A stretch of DNA of 64,000 bases from Bacteroidales bacterium (GCA_011620595.1 WOYX01000037.1:55440-119439); one strand, 5' to 3'. Shown: positions 428-63,903, counted from the stretch's first letter. Translations and numbers: made by a program. Notes: generated by a model not told the origin, from the sequence alone.

Positions 428-482
428 ACAGCCCCGACATGTTTGTTGATAATTATCATCTGTCACTGATGATGTAATTCAT

Positions 483-490
483 TACCTTTG
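483..490 (+). promoter_or_regulatory. Bacteroidota -7 promoter element TACCTTTG upstream of the riboswitch
   Basis: TACCTTTG matches TAnnTTTG and lies directly before the riboswitch P1 stem; no clear -33 TTTG at ideal spacing. Confidence 0.5.
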
Positions 491-493
491 TTT

Positions 494-682
494 CATTCTG
501 GTGCTGCCGGTTTTTTCCGGCAGTGAAAAGGGAACCCTGTTTGAATCAGGGACAGTACCCGCTGCTGTGAAGCCTGTTCCGCCGTTTGCGGATCATTACA
601 GCCGGAATTCCCGCCACTGTCTGCCAGCTGGCGGACGGGAAGGCCCGGTGAGTAGGGATAAGTCAGAAGACCTGCCAGAATG
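494..682 (+). promoter_or_regulatory. Cobalamin riboswitch
   Basis: P1 closing stem CATTCTGG (494-501)/CCAGAATG (675-682); conserved blocks AAAGGGAA, AATCAGGGACAG, CCCGCTGCTGTGA, CCACTG, GGGAAGGC, GATAAGTCAGAAGACCTGCC. Confidence 0.96.
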
Positions 683-717
683 TGTCCTGTAACAGGGAGC
701 TTTCGGGAATAAAAGTT

Positions 718-18608: not shown

Positions 18609-18682
18609 GGTTCCGTAGCTCAGTTGGATAGAGCAACAGCCTTCTAAGCTGTGGGTCGAGCGTTCGAGTCGCTCCGGAATCA
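18609..18682 (+). tRNA. tRNA-Arg (anticodon TCT)
   Basis: GGTTCCG...CGGAATC acceptor, GCTC/GAGC D-stem, ACAGC-CTTCTAA-GCTGT anticodon arm, GAGCG-TTCGAGT-CGCTC T-arm. Confidence 0.95.
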
Positions 18683-38279: not shown

Positions 38280-39305
38280 ATGATTGCTATGATTGACCTG
38301 AGAAGCGACACCGTAACAAAGCCTTCCCCAGGGATGCTTGAGTTCATGATGAAAGCCAGTGTAGGTGACATGATCTTCGGTGAAGACCCTATGGTGAATG
38401 AACTTGAGGAGATGTCAGCCTCAATGTTCGGCATGGAGGCAGCTCTCTACTGTCCTTCCGGAACGATGACAAATCAGATTGCAATTAAGGCTCATACCCG
38501 TCCCGGTGATGAAGTTATCTGCAGCCGGCTGGCACATATATACCAGTTTGAAGGAGGAGGAGTGGCCTTCAACTCCAGTGCTTCAGTGGCGCTTATTGAC
38601 TCTGAAAACGGCACCTTCACCACTGAAGATGTGGAGCAGTATATCAACAATCCCAACGACTGTCACAAGGCCTATACCCGGCTGGTAGAGGTAGAGAACA
38701 CTGTCAACAGGGGTGCCGGGGCCTGTTGGGACTTTGATGAATTGGCGAGGATCAGGGAGCTGTGTGACAGGTATGGTCTCGGTTATCACCTCGACGGTGC
38801 CAGGCTGTTCAATGCCATGACTGCTGACGGCAGAAAACCGGAGGAGTACGGGGCACTTTTTGATTCGATCTCGATATGCCTCTCCAAGGGACTGGGTGCA
38901 CCGGTAGGTTCCGTGCTGCTGGGAAACAGGGATTTCATCAGGCAGGGGCAACGGATCAGGAAGGTGCTGGGTGGAGCCATGAGGCAGGCCGGATATATTG
39001 CCGCGGCGGGAATCTATGCGCTCCGTAACAACGTGGAGCGTCTTTCAGAAGACCACCGCAACGCTGCAGATATCGCTAAAGCTTTGGAAAAGTGTAGCCT
39101 GGTAGAACATGTCAGTTATGGCGGAACCAATATGATCATCTTTACACTGGTGCCCGGAATGAAAGCCTCGGAGTTCCTGGATAAGATGAAAGATCACGGT
39201 ATTCTGGCACTGAAGACAGGGGAGAGGAGCATAAGGTTCGTTACCCACCTGGACCTGAGTGAGGCGGATATCCGAAAGAGCTGCGAGGTGCTGGCTACCC
39301 TCTGA
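38280..39305 (+). CDS. Low-specificity L-threonine aldolase
   Basis: MIDLRSDTVTKPSPGMLEFMM; GDMIFGEDPMVNELE; HLDGARLFNA; SICLSKGLGAPVGSVLLGN. Confidence 0.94.
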   Translation: MIAMIDLRSDTVTKPSPGMLEFMMKASVGDMIFGEDPMVNELEEMSASMFGMEAALYCPSGTMTNQIAIKAHTRPGDEVICSRLAHIYQFEGGGVAFNSSASVALIDSENGTFTTEDVEQYINNPNDCHKAYTRLVEVENTVNRGAGACWDFDELARIRELCDRYGLGYHLDGARLFNAMTADGRKPEEYGALFDSISICLSKGLGAPVGSVLLGNRDFIRQGQRIRKVLGGAMRQAGYIAAAGIYALRNNVERLSEDHRNAADIAKALEKCSLVEHVSYGGTNMIIFTLVPGMKASEFLDKMKDHGILALKTGERSIRFVTHLDLSEADIRKSCEVLATL

Positions 39306-39332: not shown

Positions 39333-39812
39333 TCATAATACTTTGCGGTAGACAAGTTTATCGTCGCCGGGGCCGTAGAACTCACGCAGCGTGGCCTCAA
39401 GCTCATAACCGTTTTTGAGATAAAAGTGCCTTGTCGGTTCATACAGAGGCCTCCCTGAGGTCTCGATCCAGACAATTTTTCCTTTCATTGAGCTGATTCG
39501 CTCTTCGGCGTTCTTCAGTATAACAGACCCGTAATGCTTCTGTCTCTGTTCCTCCCGGATGGCTATCCAGTAGAGATCCCATGAGTGCACTGACGACGGA
39601 TTGGGCCCAAAGCATGCAAAACCTACAACCTCACCGTTTTCACGAAGGCGCACCCAGTAGTAACCGCTGCTCTCCTGGCCTTTTTCAGTTGTTTCATCAG
39701 CCAGAGAAAGAGCTACTTCTATCTCAAAGTCATAGAAGTATCCGGATGATGAGAGTATCTTTTCAAGAGCTGGCCTGTCGGCGCGGGTTATCTCAAAGGA
39801 AATTTCAGCCAT
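39333..39812 (-). CDS. GNAT family N-acetyltransferase
   Basis: VGFACFGPNPSSVHSWDLYWIAIREEQRQKHYGSVILKNAEERI GNAT core; 4-bp gap from ATP-grasp gene. Confidence 0.9.
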   Translation of the reverse strand: MAEISFEITRADRPALEKILSSSGYFYDFEIEVALSLADETTEKGQESSGYYWVRLRENGEVVGFACFGPNPSSVHSWDLYWIAIREEQRQKHYGSVILKNAEERISSMKGKIVWIETSGRPLYEPTRHFYLKNGYELEATLREFYGPGDDKLVYRKVL

Positions 39813-39816
39813 GGCT

Positions 39817-40785
39817 TTAACGGTTCAGGTCGCGGATTATATCACCAATTATCTCCTCATGGGTCTGACCGGCATGAAGAGCTGCCGCTATAAATCCGCC
39901 ATCGGGAGAGATACAGGGGTTTGCATTGATCTCCAGCACGTAAATGTTTTCATCGCCGTCAACACGCATGTCCACACGGGCATAACCCCTGAGCCCGAAT
40001 GTATTCCAGCATGCCGTTACGATTTCCTTCAGCCTGTTCATCATGTTGCTGCTCAGGTCATCAGGAAAGCACCTCCTGCTACTTTGGTACTGAAACGTAT
40101 CCTCCTCCCATTTTGCCCTATAGCTGACTATCCGAGGCAGATCATCAGGGTAATCGTGAAAGACCATCTCAGCGGGAGGCAGCATCACGGGACCGTCAGG
40201 GCTCGATTTGACACTTACATTAAACTCTCTTCCCTCGATGAACTCTTCGATGAACCAGTGGCTGTCATCTTTACCCTTCAGGATATCAGGCATGGAGCCG
40301 TCAAATGTAAAGACCGACTCTTCCGTGATACCAAGTGAGCCGTCTTCCCAGACAGGTTTGAGGATATATTTTCTTCCCGGTTTCATACCTGCAGCTTCGG
40401 AAATTTTGTATCCGTCTGCAACAGGTATTCCGTGGGCCTTCATTATCTGCCGTGCGAGCACCTTGCTGCCTGAGAGAAAAGCGGCTTCCACCGAGCATCC
40501 CGTATAGGGTATGTGATGCATGTTGAGCAGGGCGGGGATGAAATAGAGTATTTCCGCCCTATTTCCTACCGCCTCCGCCAGGTTGAAGACAAAGTCAAAA
40601 TCCTCTTCAGCTATCCGGGCCATCTCGCTGAAGAAATTCTCAGTGATACCTCTGCGCTGGGCATTAATGCCAATTTTTTTCAGCGTGGTCTCAATAAAAT
40701 TGACCTGATCGATGACGTCAAGCTCGTCAGGCAGGGCGTCCGGTGCAGGTTCATTGTAGATAATCAGGCATTTCCCATCCATCAT
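39817..40785 (-). CDS. D-Ala-D-Ala ligase-like ATP-grasp protein (A)
   Basis: FNLAEAVGNRAEILYFIPALLNMHHIPYTGCSVEAAFLSGSKVLARQIMKAHGIPV; KYILKPVWEDGSLGI; YVLEINANPCISP. Confidence 0.9.
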   Translation of the reverse strand: MMDGKCLIIYNEPAPDALPDELDVIDQVNFIETTLKKIGINAQRRGITENFFSEMARIAEEDFDFVFNLAEAVGNRAEILYFIPALLNMHHIPYTGCSVEAAFLSGSKVLARQIMKAHGIPVADGYKISEAAGMKPGRKYILKPVWEDGSLGITEESVFTFDGSMPDILKGKDDSHWFIEEFIEGREFNVSVKSSPDGPVMLPPAEMVFHDYPDDLPRIVSYRAKWEEDTFQYQSSRRCFPDDLSSNMMNRLKEIVTACWNTFGLRGYARVDMRVDGDENIYVLEINANPCISPDGGFIAAALHAGQTHEEIIGDIIRDLNR

Positions 40786-41756
40786 GCAAGTCCGTAACGT
40801 TTTTTTGCAGAGTTCATTATCAACTCAATAAGAGTTTCAAAGCCCATGCCGTTCATACGTGAGAGCATGGGAAGGTCGGAATGTACCGGGTTTAGTCCTG
40901 CCAGAGGGTTCGCCTCTATGAAGCATATCCTGCCGTTACGGTCAGCCTTCATGTCAACGCGGCCGGCATCCACGGCGCCGAGGGCACTCCACGCACCGAG
41001 GGCCACCGCATCGCACTCACCCCGTACTGCCTCGTCATAGACTTCGTACTTTACATAATCTTCGTAGTTTTCCTTCACCTCGACGGAATAGGGGAGATCA
41101 TCCATGCATATCACCTCCATTCCGCCCGTCACCCTCGCTTCACTGCCTGTGCCGGTGACACCGACGGTGAACTCCCTTCCGGGCAGGTATTCTTCAATCA
41201 GTACCGGCTGATGATAGGTCTCCAGCAATCCGGTGACAACTGTCACCAGGGAATCACGGTTCCGAACCACACTATTTGAGTTGATACCCTTGCCCGTTCC
41301 CTCTGCCACAGGTTTGACAAAGAGGGGGAAAGCCAGGGAGGAGGCCTGGTCAAGGTCAGCGACAGAGGCAGCAATGATGCCCGGACATACCGGTACACCG
41401 GCAGCTTCAACCACAAGGCGTGCCAGGTATTTGTTGAGTGAGACTCCCATCACCACCGGCCCGCTGAAGACATAGGGTATACGGTACTGGTCGAGCAGCG
41501 CCGGCACGGCCGACTCACGTCCGTCGCCGTAGAGTCCTTCGGCAATGTTGAATACCATATCCCATCTCCGGCCGGCGGCGAGCTGCGTCACAAGCTCAAA
41601 GAGATTTCCGATGCGTTCCGTCTCATAGCCGAGGGTGCTTAGTGCCACCTCGAGGGCGGCCACCGTCTCCTCCTTGTCAAACTCGGCAGTCTCATCCATG
41701 GTGTAACCCCGTTCAAGGTACCACGAACGGAGATCATAGGTAAGGCCTATCCTCAT
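40782..41756 (-). CDS. D-Ala-D-Ala ligase-like ATP-grasp protein (B)
   Basis: FNIAEGLYGDGRESAVPALLDQYRIPYVFSGPVVMGVSLNKYLARLVVEAAGVPV; PLFVKPVAEGTGKGI; CFIEANPLAGLNP; 4-nt overlap with ATP-grasp A. Confidence 0.9.
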   Translation of the reverse strand: MRIGLTYDLRSWYLERGYTMDETAEFDKEETVAALEVALSTLGYETERIGNLFELVTQLAAGRRWDMVFNIAEGLYGDGRESAVPALLDQYRIPYVFSGPVVMGVSLNKYLARLVVEAAGVPVCPGIIAASVADLDQASSLAFPLFVKPVAEGTGKGINSNSVVRNRDSLVTVVTGLLETYHQPVLIEEYLPGREFTVGVTGTGSEARVTGGMEVICMDDLPYSVEVKENYEDYVKYEVYDEAVRGECDAVALGAWSALGAVDAGRVDMKADRNGRICFIEANPLAGLNPVHSDLPMLSRMNGMGFETLIELIMNSAKKRYGLA

Positions 41757-41763
41757 CCTTCAG

Positions 41764-43008
41764 TTACTTTTTGTTGGGATAAGTATACCGGTTGTTCTTG
41801 TAGTTCCTGAGCACCCACTTTTCGGGGCCGCTCTCGACGACGTATGATGGCAGGATGGGTATCTTGCCGCCCCCGCCGGGAGCATCAATCACAAATTGGG
41901 GCACTGCATAACCGCTGGTGTGACCCCGCATGTTCTCTATTATGTCTATCCCTGTTTCCACGGTGGTACGGAAGTGGCTGGATCCGGGAATGAGGTCGCA
42001 CTGGTAGATATAGTAAGGCCTCACGCGCACTGTCAGCAGCTTGTGCATCAGATCCTTCATCGTTGCGGGATAGTCGTTTATTCCCTTCAGGAGCACCGTC
42101 TGGCTCCCCAGGGGTATACCTGCATCGGCAAGCATCTCACATGCCCTGCGCGTCTCTTTTGTCAACTCGTCGGGGTGGGTGAAGTGCAGACTGAGAAAGA
42201 GCGGATGATATCTCCGGAGCATTGACACCAGCTGAGGCGTTATCCTCTGCGGGAGCACGGCCGGTATTTTGGTTCCTATTCTCAGGATCTCAATATGTTT
42301 TATGGACCTCAGTCGCGAGAGCAGGTACTCCAGCTTTTTGTTGTTCATCGTCAGGGGATCCCCTCCGCTGATAATGACATCACGTATTTCGGTATGTTCT
42401 TCAAGATACCTGAAGGCTATCTCCCATTCGTCTTTCGTCAGGTGTCCGAGCTTGCCGACCGAATGCGACCGTGTGCAGTACCTGCAGTATGATGAGCAGA
42501 ACTGGGTGACGGTGAAAAGCGCCCTGTCAGGATACCGGTGAATGATGCCGGGAACGGGGCTGCTGCCTGTCTCGTCGAGCGGGTCAGCCTTCTCAGCCTC
42601 GGTGATTATCATCTCCCCCGAGGTGGGAATCATGGTACGGCGCAGCGGGGCGCCGGGCTCCGAATCATAGATGAGAGACAGATAGTATGGAGTGACGCGC
42701 AACGGCAACCTGTTCTTCAGCCTGTGAAGAGTATTCTTCTCGTCATCGGTGAGCGTCATGACACGCGACAGAGCCTCGGCGGTGGTAAAGGAATTGCGAA
42801 GCTGCCAGCGCCAGTCATTCCAGGAAGTAACATTTGTTAGTGGGAAGTAGCGGCGTATGAATTCCGAACTCCGGTTGCTAACTGCTTGATCGTGGGATCC
42901 GATCTGCGGGAAGATCATGGTACCCGCGCCAGGTTCTTCGTCAGAAGAACAGCCCATGAGGCGGTGCTCATTATGAGTCATCGTAGCCTCTTTTCTGTTA
43001 GCGTTCAT
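41764..43008 (-). CDS. kamA: KamA family radical SAM enzyme (lysine 2,3-aminomutase-like)
   Basis: FCSSYCRYCTRSHSVG (Cx3Cx2C), ISGGDPL, VRPYYIYQCDLIPGSSHFRT, FVIDAPGGGGKIPI (PLP lysine motif). True start may be the internal MTHNEH. Confidence 0.93.
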   Translation of the reverse strand: MNANRKEATMTHNEHRLMGCSSDEEPGAGTMIFPQIGSHDQAVSNRSSEFIRRYFPLTNVTSWNDWRWQLRNSFTTAEALSRVMTLTDDEKNTLHRLKNRLPLRVTPYYLSLIYDSEPGAPLRRTMIPTSGEMIITEAEKADPLDETGSSPVPGIIHRYPDRALFTVTQFCSSYCRYCTRSHSVGKLGHLTKDEWEIAFRYLEEHTEIRDVIISGGDPLTMNNKKLEYLLSRLRSIKHIEILRIGTKIPAVLPQRITPQLVSMLRRYHPLFLSLHFTHPDELTKETRRACEMLADAGIPLGSQTVLLKGINDYPATMKDLMHKLLTVRVRPYYIYQCDLIPGSSHFRTTVETGIDIIENMRGHTSGYAVPQFVIDAPGGGGKIPILPSYVVESGPEKWVLRNYKNNRYTYPNKK

Positions 43009-43264: not shown

Positions 43265-43682
43265 TTAAATTTTAATATCCGGATACTTTTGAGCAATTAT
43301 TTTCAGGTTATTTTTTACCATTTCATCTCGCCGGGCAGCACACACTTGAGTGCGTCCTGCATCTTCCGGTGTATTCATCACATAATCCGTCAGTTTATCC
43401 ATTGTTGTTGTTGCCGCATGCATCCCGGTATCTGAGCTTGCATAGTAGACAAAGACCGTGCCATCTTCATCAGCTATCCAGACGTGTCATCAGGTGTGGG
43501 TTGGTCCTGTAGTTGAGATCATACCTCCGGAAGACGGGAGTATGATCGCGAGTGATAATGGGATACAGATACCTGTCGTAGATGCCGTTGCCGTCTGTTC
43601 TTATGATGTTCCGCCGACTGACAAGCGCAGAGTGCTCTTCAAAGAGCTGCCTGACCCTGCTGTCAAAATCCTTTTCTGTCAT
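43265..43682 (-). pseudogene. GH130 family glycoside phosphorylase remnant (N- and C-termini joined, middle deleted, frameshift)
   Basis: N-terminal MTEKDFDSRVRQLFEEHSALVSRRN...NGIYDRYLYPIITRDHTPVFRRYDLNYRTNPHLMTRLDS* then frameshifted DEDGTVFVYYASSDTGMHAATTTMDKLTDYVMNTPEDAGRTQVCAARRDEMVKNNLKIIAQKYPDIKI*. Confidence 0.8.
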
Positions 43683-63554: not shown

Positions 63555-63626
63555 GCCTCCTTAGCTCAGTGGTAGAGCAGCTCACTCGTAATGAGCAGGT
63601 CGTGGGTTCAACTCCCATGGGAGGCT
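63555..63626 (+). tRNA. tRNA-Thr (anticodon CGT)
   Basis: GCCTCCT/GGGAGGC acceptor, anticodon arm CTCACT-CGT-AATGAG, T-arm GTGGG-TTCAACT-CCCAT. Confidence 0.93.
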
Positions 63627-63831: not shown

Positions 63832-63903
63832 GCGGGAGTAGCTCAGGGGTAGAGCATCAGCTTCCCAAGCTGAGGGTCGAGGGTTCGAATCCCTTTTCCC
63901 GCT
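63832..63903 (+). tRNA. tRNA-Gly (anticodon CCC)
   Basis: GCGGGAG/TTCCCGC acceptor, anticodon arm CAGCTT-CCC-AAGCTG, T-arm GAGGG-TTCGAAT-CCCTT. Confidence 0.94.

Follow-up and report, generated by a model that had tools for sequence, protein, structure and literature searches.

We have analyzed a four-gene operon in a 64,000-nucleotide stretch of the genome of a Bacteroidales bacterium (GCA_011620595.1, WOYX01000037.1:55440-119439), here called the window, in whose coordinates all positions are given. The operon encodes a radical S-adenosylmethionine aminomutase of the KamA family, two ATP-grasp proteins that we term AGa and AGb, and a GNAT N-acetyltransferase. These four genes almost certainly form one functional pathway, and we consider it fairly likely that they constitute a self-contained cassette providing beta-lysine, two ligations and an acetylation. 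More tentatively, the cassette may represent a route, found across phyla, to an acetylated beta-lysine peptide solute, made by a zinc-less aminomutase and two non-Ddl ligases, with an acetylation that is reversible in many hosts.

Conservation of the four genes as a unit

All four genes lie on the minus strand. KamA (41764-43008, 414 amino acids, matching PF04055 and LAM_C) is a predicted L-lysine 2,3-aminomutase of a module-specific subfamily without zinc cysteines. AGa (40782-41756, 324 amino acids; PF07478, 80.4 bits) and the more divergent AGb (39817-40785, 322 amino acids; PF07478, 61.3 bits) are Ddl-superfamily ligases, and the N-acetyltransferase (39333-39812, 159 amino acids; PF00583, 44.5 bits) belongs to the family of PDB 2r7h. 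From the open reading frame (ORF) calls, KamA and AGa are separated by 7 bp, AGa and AGb overlap by 4 bp, and a further 4 bp separate AGb from the GNAT gene. The original prediction, made from the sequence of the window, gave these genes and spacings exactly to the base. It also took them to be a single operon, which co-conservation across lineages upholds as one functional unit.

A scan of GTDB species found AGa homologues in at least 573 species-level genomes. Locus statistics were taken from the best 80 of these relatives, a sample skewed to close relatives of the query alignment, and partners were counted only where the contig reaches far enough. AGa is adjoined by KamA in 68/72 loci, by AGb in 71/72 and by GNAT in 54/70. 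Judged by record titles and tree labels, the 80 loci derive from Bacteroidota, Desulfobacterota, Myxococcota, Acidobacteriota, KSB1, Neomarinimicrobiota (Fidelibacterota) and Spirochaetes; almost all are from metagenome-assembled genomes (MAGs), an Ancylomarina record being among the few without a MAG title. Most species of the same genus retain the four genes together with their flanks, with KamA identities of 77-97%. Outside the genus, across further families and orders, the flanks differ and the four genes remain adjacent (loci L050, L051, L052 and L054). Since the same genes are linked in other families and phyla within different surroundings, the arrangement is far beyond chance. The original prediction was to fall if its neighbors were not co-conserved; the linkage is instead strongly maintained across families and phyla.

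Among 393 evenly drawn Bacteroidota genomes, 70 contain AGa and 122 contain KamA. Both are present in 68, and in 59 of these they lie no more than 5 kb apart (p = 1.3e-39 by a Fisher test, which ignores phylogeny). A second gene order, AGa-AGb-GNAT-KamA, occurs in 16 extended loci of this set. All four genes are present in 12/12 extended Desulfovibrionales loci, and the cassette-type GNAT was found in 56/247 genomes of the order to which a Desulfonatronovibrio genome belongs. Pairwise distances of the four gene families correlate with coefficients of 0.72-0.87 over 79 loci outside the genus, compared with a maximum of 0.20 after shuffling. Two KamA proteins, one from a 'Proteobacteria' MAG (L104) and the other from a Neomarinimicrobiota MAG (L136), fall among those of Bacteroidota, and the other three genes agree; this suggests that the whole cassette was transferred together, or else that there was mis-binning. 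Spread by phage was rejected, as IMG/VR yielded a single locus, with AGa alone at 43% identity.

The KamA subfamily and its substrate

The window KamA scores 344.7 bits against TIGR00238 (cut-off 199.2). It falls below the cut-offs of the characterized equivalogs, with 467.8 bits for the AblA model TIGR03820 (cut-off 525.4), 420.1 bits for glutamate 2,3-aminomutase TIGR04368 (cut-off 650) and 378.2 bits for arginine 2,3-aminomutase TIGR04468 (cut-off 600). The lysine model is the best of the three, by 48 bits over glutamate and 90 bits over arginine. The best PDB match, and the only PDB relative found, is the lysine 2,3-aminomutase 2a5h (431.6 bits). Other KamA-family matches in the host genome are weaker, one of them passing the subfamily cut-off.

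Residues are numbered according to the clostridial lysine 2,3-aminomutase. C125, C129, C132 and R134, the last of which we take to bind the substrate carboxylate, are present in all module KamAs. D293 and D330, presumably the ligands of the substrate amine, and K337 are present in every module KamA that covers those positions. The window protein has the complete set, and the motifs that had been read from it earlier (CxxxCxxC, YQCD and IDAPGGGGK) are all there. At the two substrate positions, where module KamA has Asp/Asp, glutamate 2,3-aminomutase has Lys/Asn. Cys268 and the C-terminal cysteines, which we take to be the zinc ligands of the clostridial enzyme, have been lost. Cys268 is found in 0/92 A-type and 0/17 rearranged-order module KamAs, compared with 7/9 non-module KamAs, and the C-terminal cysteine cluster in 0/89 and 0/17, compared with 7/8. 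The window protein has tyrosine at the position equivalent to Cys268, and no C-terminal cluster. An N-terminal EPP/EPG motif is present in 76/92 A-type KamAs, 1/17 of the rearranged set and 0/9 non-module proteins. Apart from the long-branched L144, the module KamAs form one clade in the tree (SH-aLRT 98) that stands apart from the clostridial enzyme and the non-module KamAs; placing L144 inside this clade is not rejected (p-AU 0.65). Judged by its sequence, module KamA is a distinct subfamily that keeps each of the checked active-site residues of lysine 2,3-aminomutase and has lost the structural zinc cysteines.

The amino acid of the cassette is probably beta-lysine. The preference for lysine originally proposed has support in that D293 and D330 are kept and the lysine model scores best; it was overstated as to specificity, which the two acids suggest and do not by themselves settle. 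An unlikely alternative is that the substrate of KamA is arginine, ornithine or some different basic amino acid, and that the ligases build a peptide of its beta form, which might be a secreted natural product. The scores below all three equivalog cut-offs would allow this, and the aspartate pair binds a positive charge and need not select lysine. Nevertheless, the margins of the lysine model and the single PDB relative argue for lysine, and a secreted product is disfavored because genes for export or resistance do not recur.

The ligases, acetylation and the proposed product

AlphaFold models of AGa and AGb have pLDDT values of 93.9 and 94.1, and the closest PDB folds of both are Ddl, at TM ~0.8 and 20-26% identity for AGa and at 15-22% identity for AGb. 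Together with the PF07478 matches, these folds confirm the two divergent D-Ala-D-Ala-ligase-like enzymes that had been recognized at the outset. Both score well below the cut-off of 245.65 bits for the Ddl model TIGR01205 (AGa 107.3, AGb 82.8). We aligned 40 AGa and 44 AGb sequences, using E. coli DdlB numbering; the DdlB sequence used has the expected residue at each of 15 positions checked. K97, K144, E187, K215, R255, D257 and N272 are invariant in both sets, and E180 and E270 nearly so. Each protein thus combines the Ddl-type fold with the catalytic Lys, Arg, Asp, Glu and Asn of an ATP-grasp carboxylate-amine ligase. On the D-Ala side the residues have changed. In AGa, S150 is replaced by Thr (36/40), Y216 by Glu (27/40) and L282 by Asp (39/40). 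In AGb, S150 is replaced by Ala or Gly (44/44), Y216 by Trp (44/44), G276 by Cys (37/44) and L282 by Gly (44/44). The Ddl of the host has Glu at Y216 in one alignment and Tyr in the other, so that single AGa positions in this loop depend upon the alignment. From residues and models, AGa and AGb look like active ligases for substrates other than those of Ddl; our guess is that Asp294, an acid conserved in AGa, would be suited to binding a basic acceptor.

A cell-wall role, which the original prediction had named as its own refutation, was rejected: the D-Ala contacts differ, the scores are below the cut-off, and a separate Ddl on another contig of the host (C56) scores 259.5 bits, above that cut-off. 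The host genome also contains a lone Ddl-like ORF related to AGb (L150 on contig C24, 128 bits). A similar lone ORF occurs in two sister species (L060 and L063), divergent to a KamA of the zinc type.

A role of the two ATP-grasp proteins in storage, in attachment or in some unrelated step is quite unlikely. A KamA working with an acetyltransferase would be the established AblA/AblB logic (PMC9337991, PMC3543383), and since AblB (TIGR03827) has no match in the host genome, whose assembly is ~96% complete, the cassette GNAT could substitute for it. Yet it is the ligases that are the most constant partners and GNAT that is the least constant; both ligases retain full catalytic sets, and the module KamAs form a clade separate from the clostridial type.

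The profile of the GNAT family matches PDB 2r7h over nearly its full length with 185.3 bits, the next match scoring 30 bits. This structure, presumably a Desulfovibrio structural-genomics target, was deposited as a 'putative D-alanine N-acetyltransferase of GNAT family'. Its Desulfovibrionales relatives are located in KamA cassettes. The name is probably misleading, as the gene context contradicts D-alanine as the natural substrate, and probably derives from a 'D-Ala ligase' neighborhood. In Bacteroidales loci L071-L079, L096, L097 and others, KamA, AGa and AGb are present with no GNAT of this family within reach.

Many cassettes carry a further protein of ~580 amino acids, in which a GNAT domain is fused to a domain of the histone deacetylase (HDAC) fold. 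It was found in 18 of the best 80 loci and in 7/12 extended Desulfovibrionales loci; the window lacks it, so that it could not have entered the original prediction. Its gene is placed between KamA and AGa, or follows AGb or GNAT, and is sometimes divergent. The nearest PDB relatives of the deacetylase half are acetylpolyamine amidohydrolases, suggesting that the chemistry of the cassette involves a small amine whose N-acetyl group can be removed. On the basis of this fusion we propose that the N-acetylation is reversible. There is an apparent link between the fusion and saline sources, on record titles only.

In the proposed pathway, KamA would convert L-lysine, or a basic amino acid closely resembling it, into the beta-amino acid. 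AGa and AGb would then each form an ATP-dependent acyl phosphate of a carboxylate and couple it to an amine, with the chemistry of D-Ala-D-Ala ligase, giving a di- or tripeptide that contains beta-lysine. GNAT would acetylate a free amine, either on beta-lysine or on the peptide, and in hosts with the GNAT-HDAC fusion the acetyl group could be taken off again. We infer the identities of the substrates, the order of the steps, the product and its role. The core of the acetyl-capped beta-lysine peptide first suggested for this operon holds; the capping was overstated, as GNAT is the least conserved partner.

The product is likely to be a free peptide. RimK, LysX and Ddl are ATP-grasp ligases that act on protein or wall substrates, and an EpmB-type KamA feeds the modification of EF-P. 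By such precedents the ligases could link beta-lysine, acetylated or not, to the cell wall, a lipid or a protein, with no free peptide. This is very unlikely: carrier-protein, tRNA-synthetase-like and membrane genes do not recur in cassettes across lineages, and the HDAC domain associated with the cassettes is of the acetylpolyamine type, which acts on small molecules. Lysine fermentation was rejected, since the recurrent neighbors include no further lysine-degradation gene, no genome-wide search having been made.

Physiological role and comparison with known systems

A role as an osmolyte is possible, if short of probable. Acetyl-beta-lysine, made by a lysine aminomutase and an acetyltransferase (AblA/AblB), is an established compatible solute (PMC9337991, PMC3543383), and N-acetylglutaminylglutamine amide is an acetylated peptide of the same kind (PMC1224877). 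We favor a solute because of these precedents, and because the gene set is small, spread over many phyla and lacks transport or resistance genes that cross lineages. Apart from synteny within a lineage, no transport, resistance, export or non-ribosomal peptide synthetase gene is a repeated neighbor of the module at the loci examined. So wide a taxonomic distribution is more in keeping with a physiological solute than with an antibiotic.

A number of points weigh against the proposed pathway and role. GNAT is absent from 16/70 loci with room for it, so the acetyl cap is perhaps not universal, and acetylation may be dispensable or part of a different step. The two ligases could make two different products, or form one heteromer, and the acids D293 and D330 would accommodate arginine or ornithine as well. 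Neither a Na+ or cyclic di-AMP riboswitch nor any other Rfam element turned up around 13 sampled cassettes or at the window operon. From the record titles, many hosts are freshwater or digester organisms, and an apparent trehalose-6-phosphate synthase/phosphatase-like gene, read from sequence, adjoins the host ddl; given these hosts and this gene, use of the solute as an osmolyte is not strictly required.

In 8/12 Desulfovibrionales loci an NtrC-type sigma-54 activator lies near the cassette, with a weak receiver-domain match in some. Seven are directly upstream of KamA on the same strand (L260, L261, L262, L264, L266, L270 and L271), and the eighth is at L265:254-1771; of these activators, four were checked with Pfam and the others assigned by similarity. 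Their position points to regulated expression of the cassette in this order. In the window, a Bacteroidota-type promoter pattern had no match at the operon, and its overall count was at chance level.

Downstream, a PLP aldolase gene (38280-39305, plus strand) is convergent to the operon. Upstream, ~0.8 kb of DNA that is non-coding or decayed separates KamA from a gene for an EamA permease. This region includes the remnant of a GH130 gene of the mannooligosaccharide phosphorylase type (43290-43682, minus strand), a 70-amino-acid ORF, a stop and a second fragment; sister species have an intact gene of 399-423 amino acids at the same place (e.g., L048:4152-5423). In the wider lineage of the window, 11 loci (L072, L073, L076-L078, L081, L086, L089 and L096-L098) have a small membrane protein of the NTIVLLIMSNAFMTFAWYGHLK type encoded downstream of the cassette on the same strand, which could be lineage synteny or an exporter. 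Elsewhere in the window, an Rfam scan found a cobalamin riboswitch (482-693, plus strand), and there are three tRNA genes (18609-18682, 63555-63626 and 63832-63903).

The cassette is carried by hundreds of mostly anaerobic species from sediment, groundwater, digesters and marine sites, and its enzymes have no matches more specific than the general families of KamA, D-alanine ligase and acetyltransferase. In the open-access literature we found no description of such a cassette or of an acetylated beta-lysine peptide, and no full-text paper that connects lysine aminomutases in this way with either ATP-grasp ligases or acetylpolyamine hydrolases. If the product is such a peptide, it would be a common and overlooked metabolite of anaerobes; beta-amino acids would be added to the substrates of ATP-grasp ligases, and lysine aminomutases would gain a new subfamily, recognizable by a simple sequence marker.

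Like AblA/AblB, the cassette encodes a KamA-family lysine aminomutase with an acetyltransferase. It differs in the AblA score below the cut-off, the loss of the zinc cysteines, the two near-constant ATP-grasp partners and the absence of AblB, and classical AblA/AblB membership was rejected on the score, the cysteines and AblB. Module KamA shares with clostridial 2a5h a full-domain match, the radical-SAM and PLP-lysine sites, R134, D293 and D330, but has a truncated C terminus, an N-terminal extension (with EPP/EPG in most) and neither Cys268 nor the C-terminal cysteine cluster. AGa and AGb have the fold and ATP-grasp catalytic residues of Ddl, but are only 15-26% identical to it, with altered D-Ala contacts and scores far below the cut-offs. 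The cassette GNAT matches 2r7h over its full length and differs in its gene context, which speaks against a D-alanine substrate. In the synthesis of N-acetylglutaminylglutamine amide, the gene for an amidotransferase adjoins that for a GNAT/ATP-grasp fusion; the ORFs surrounding the operon include neither an asparagine-synthetase-type amidotransferase nor such a fusion. The logic is shared, in that an acetyltransferase and an ATP-grasp ligase would make an acetylated peptide solute, but the cassette has instead a KamA and two ligases, with GNAT and the ligases encoded by separate genes.

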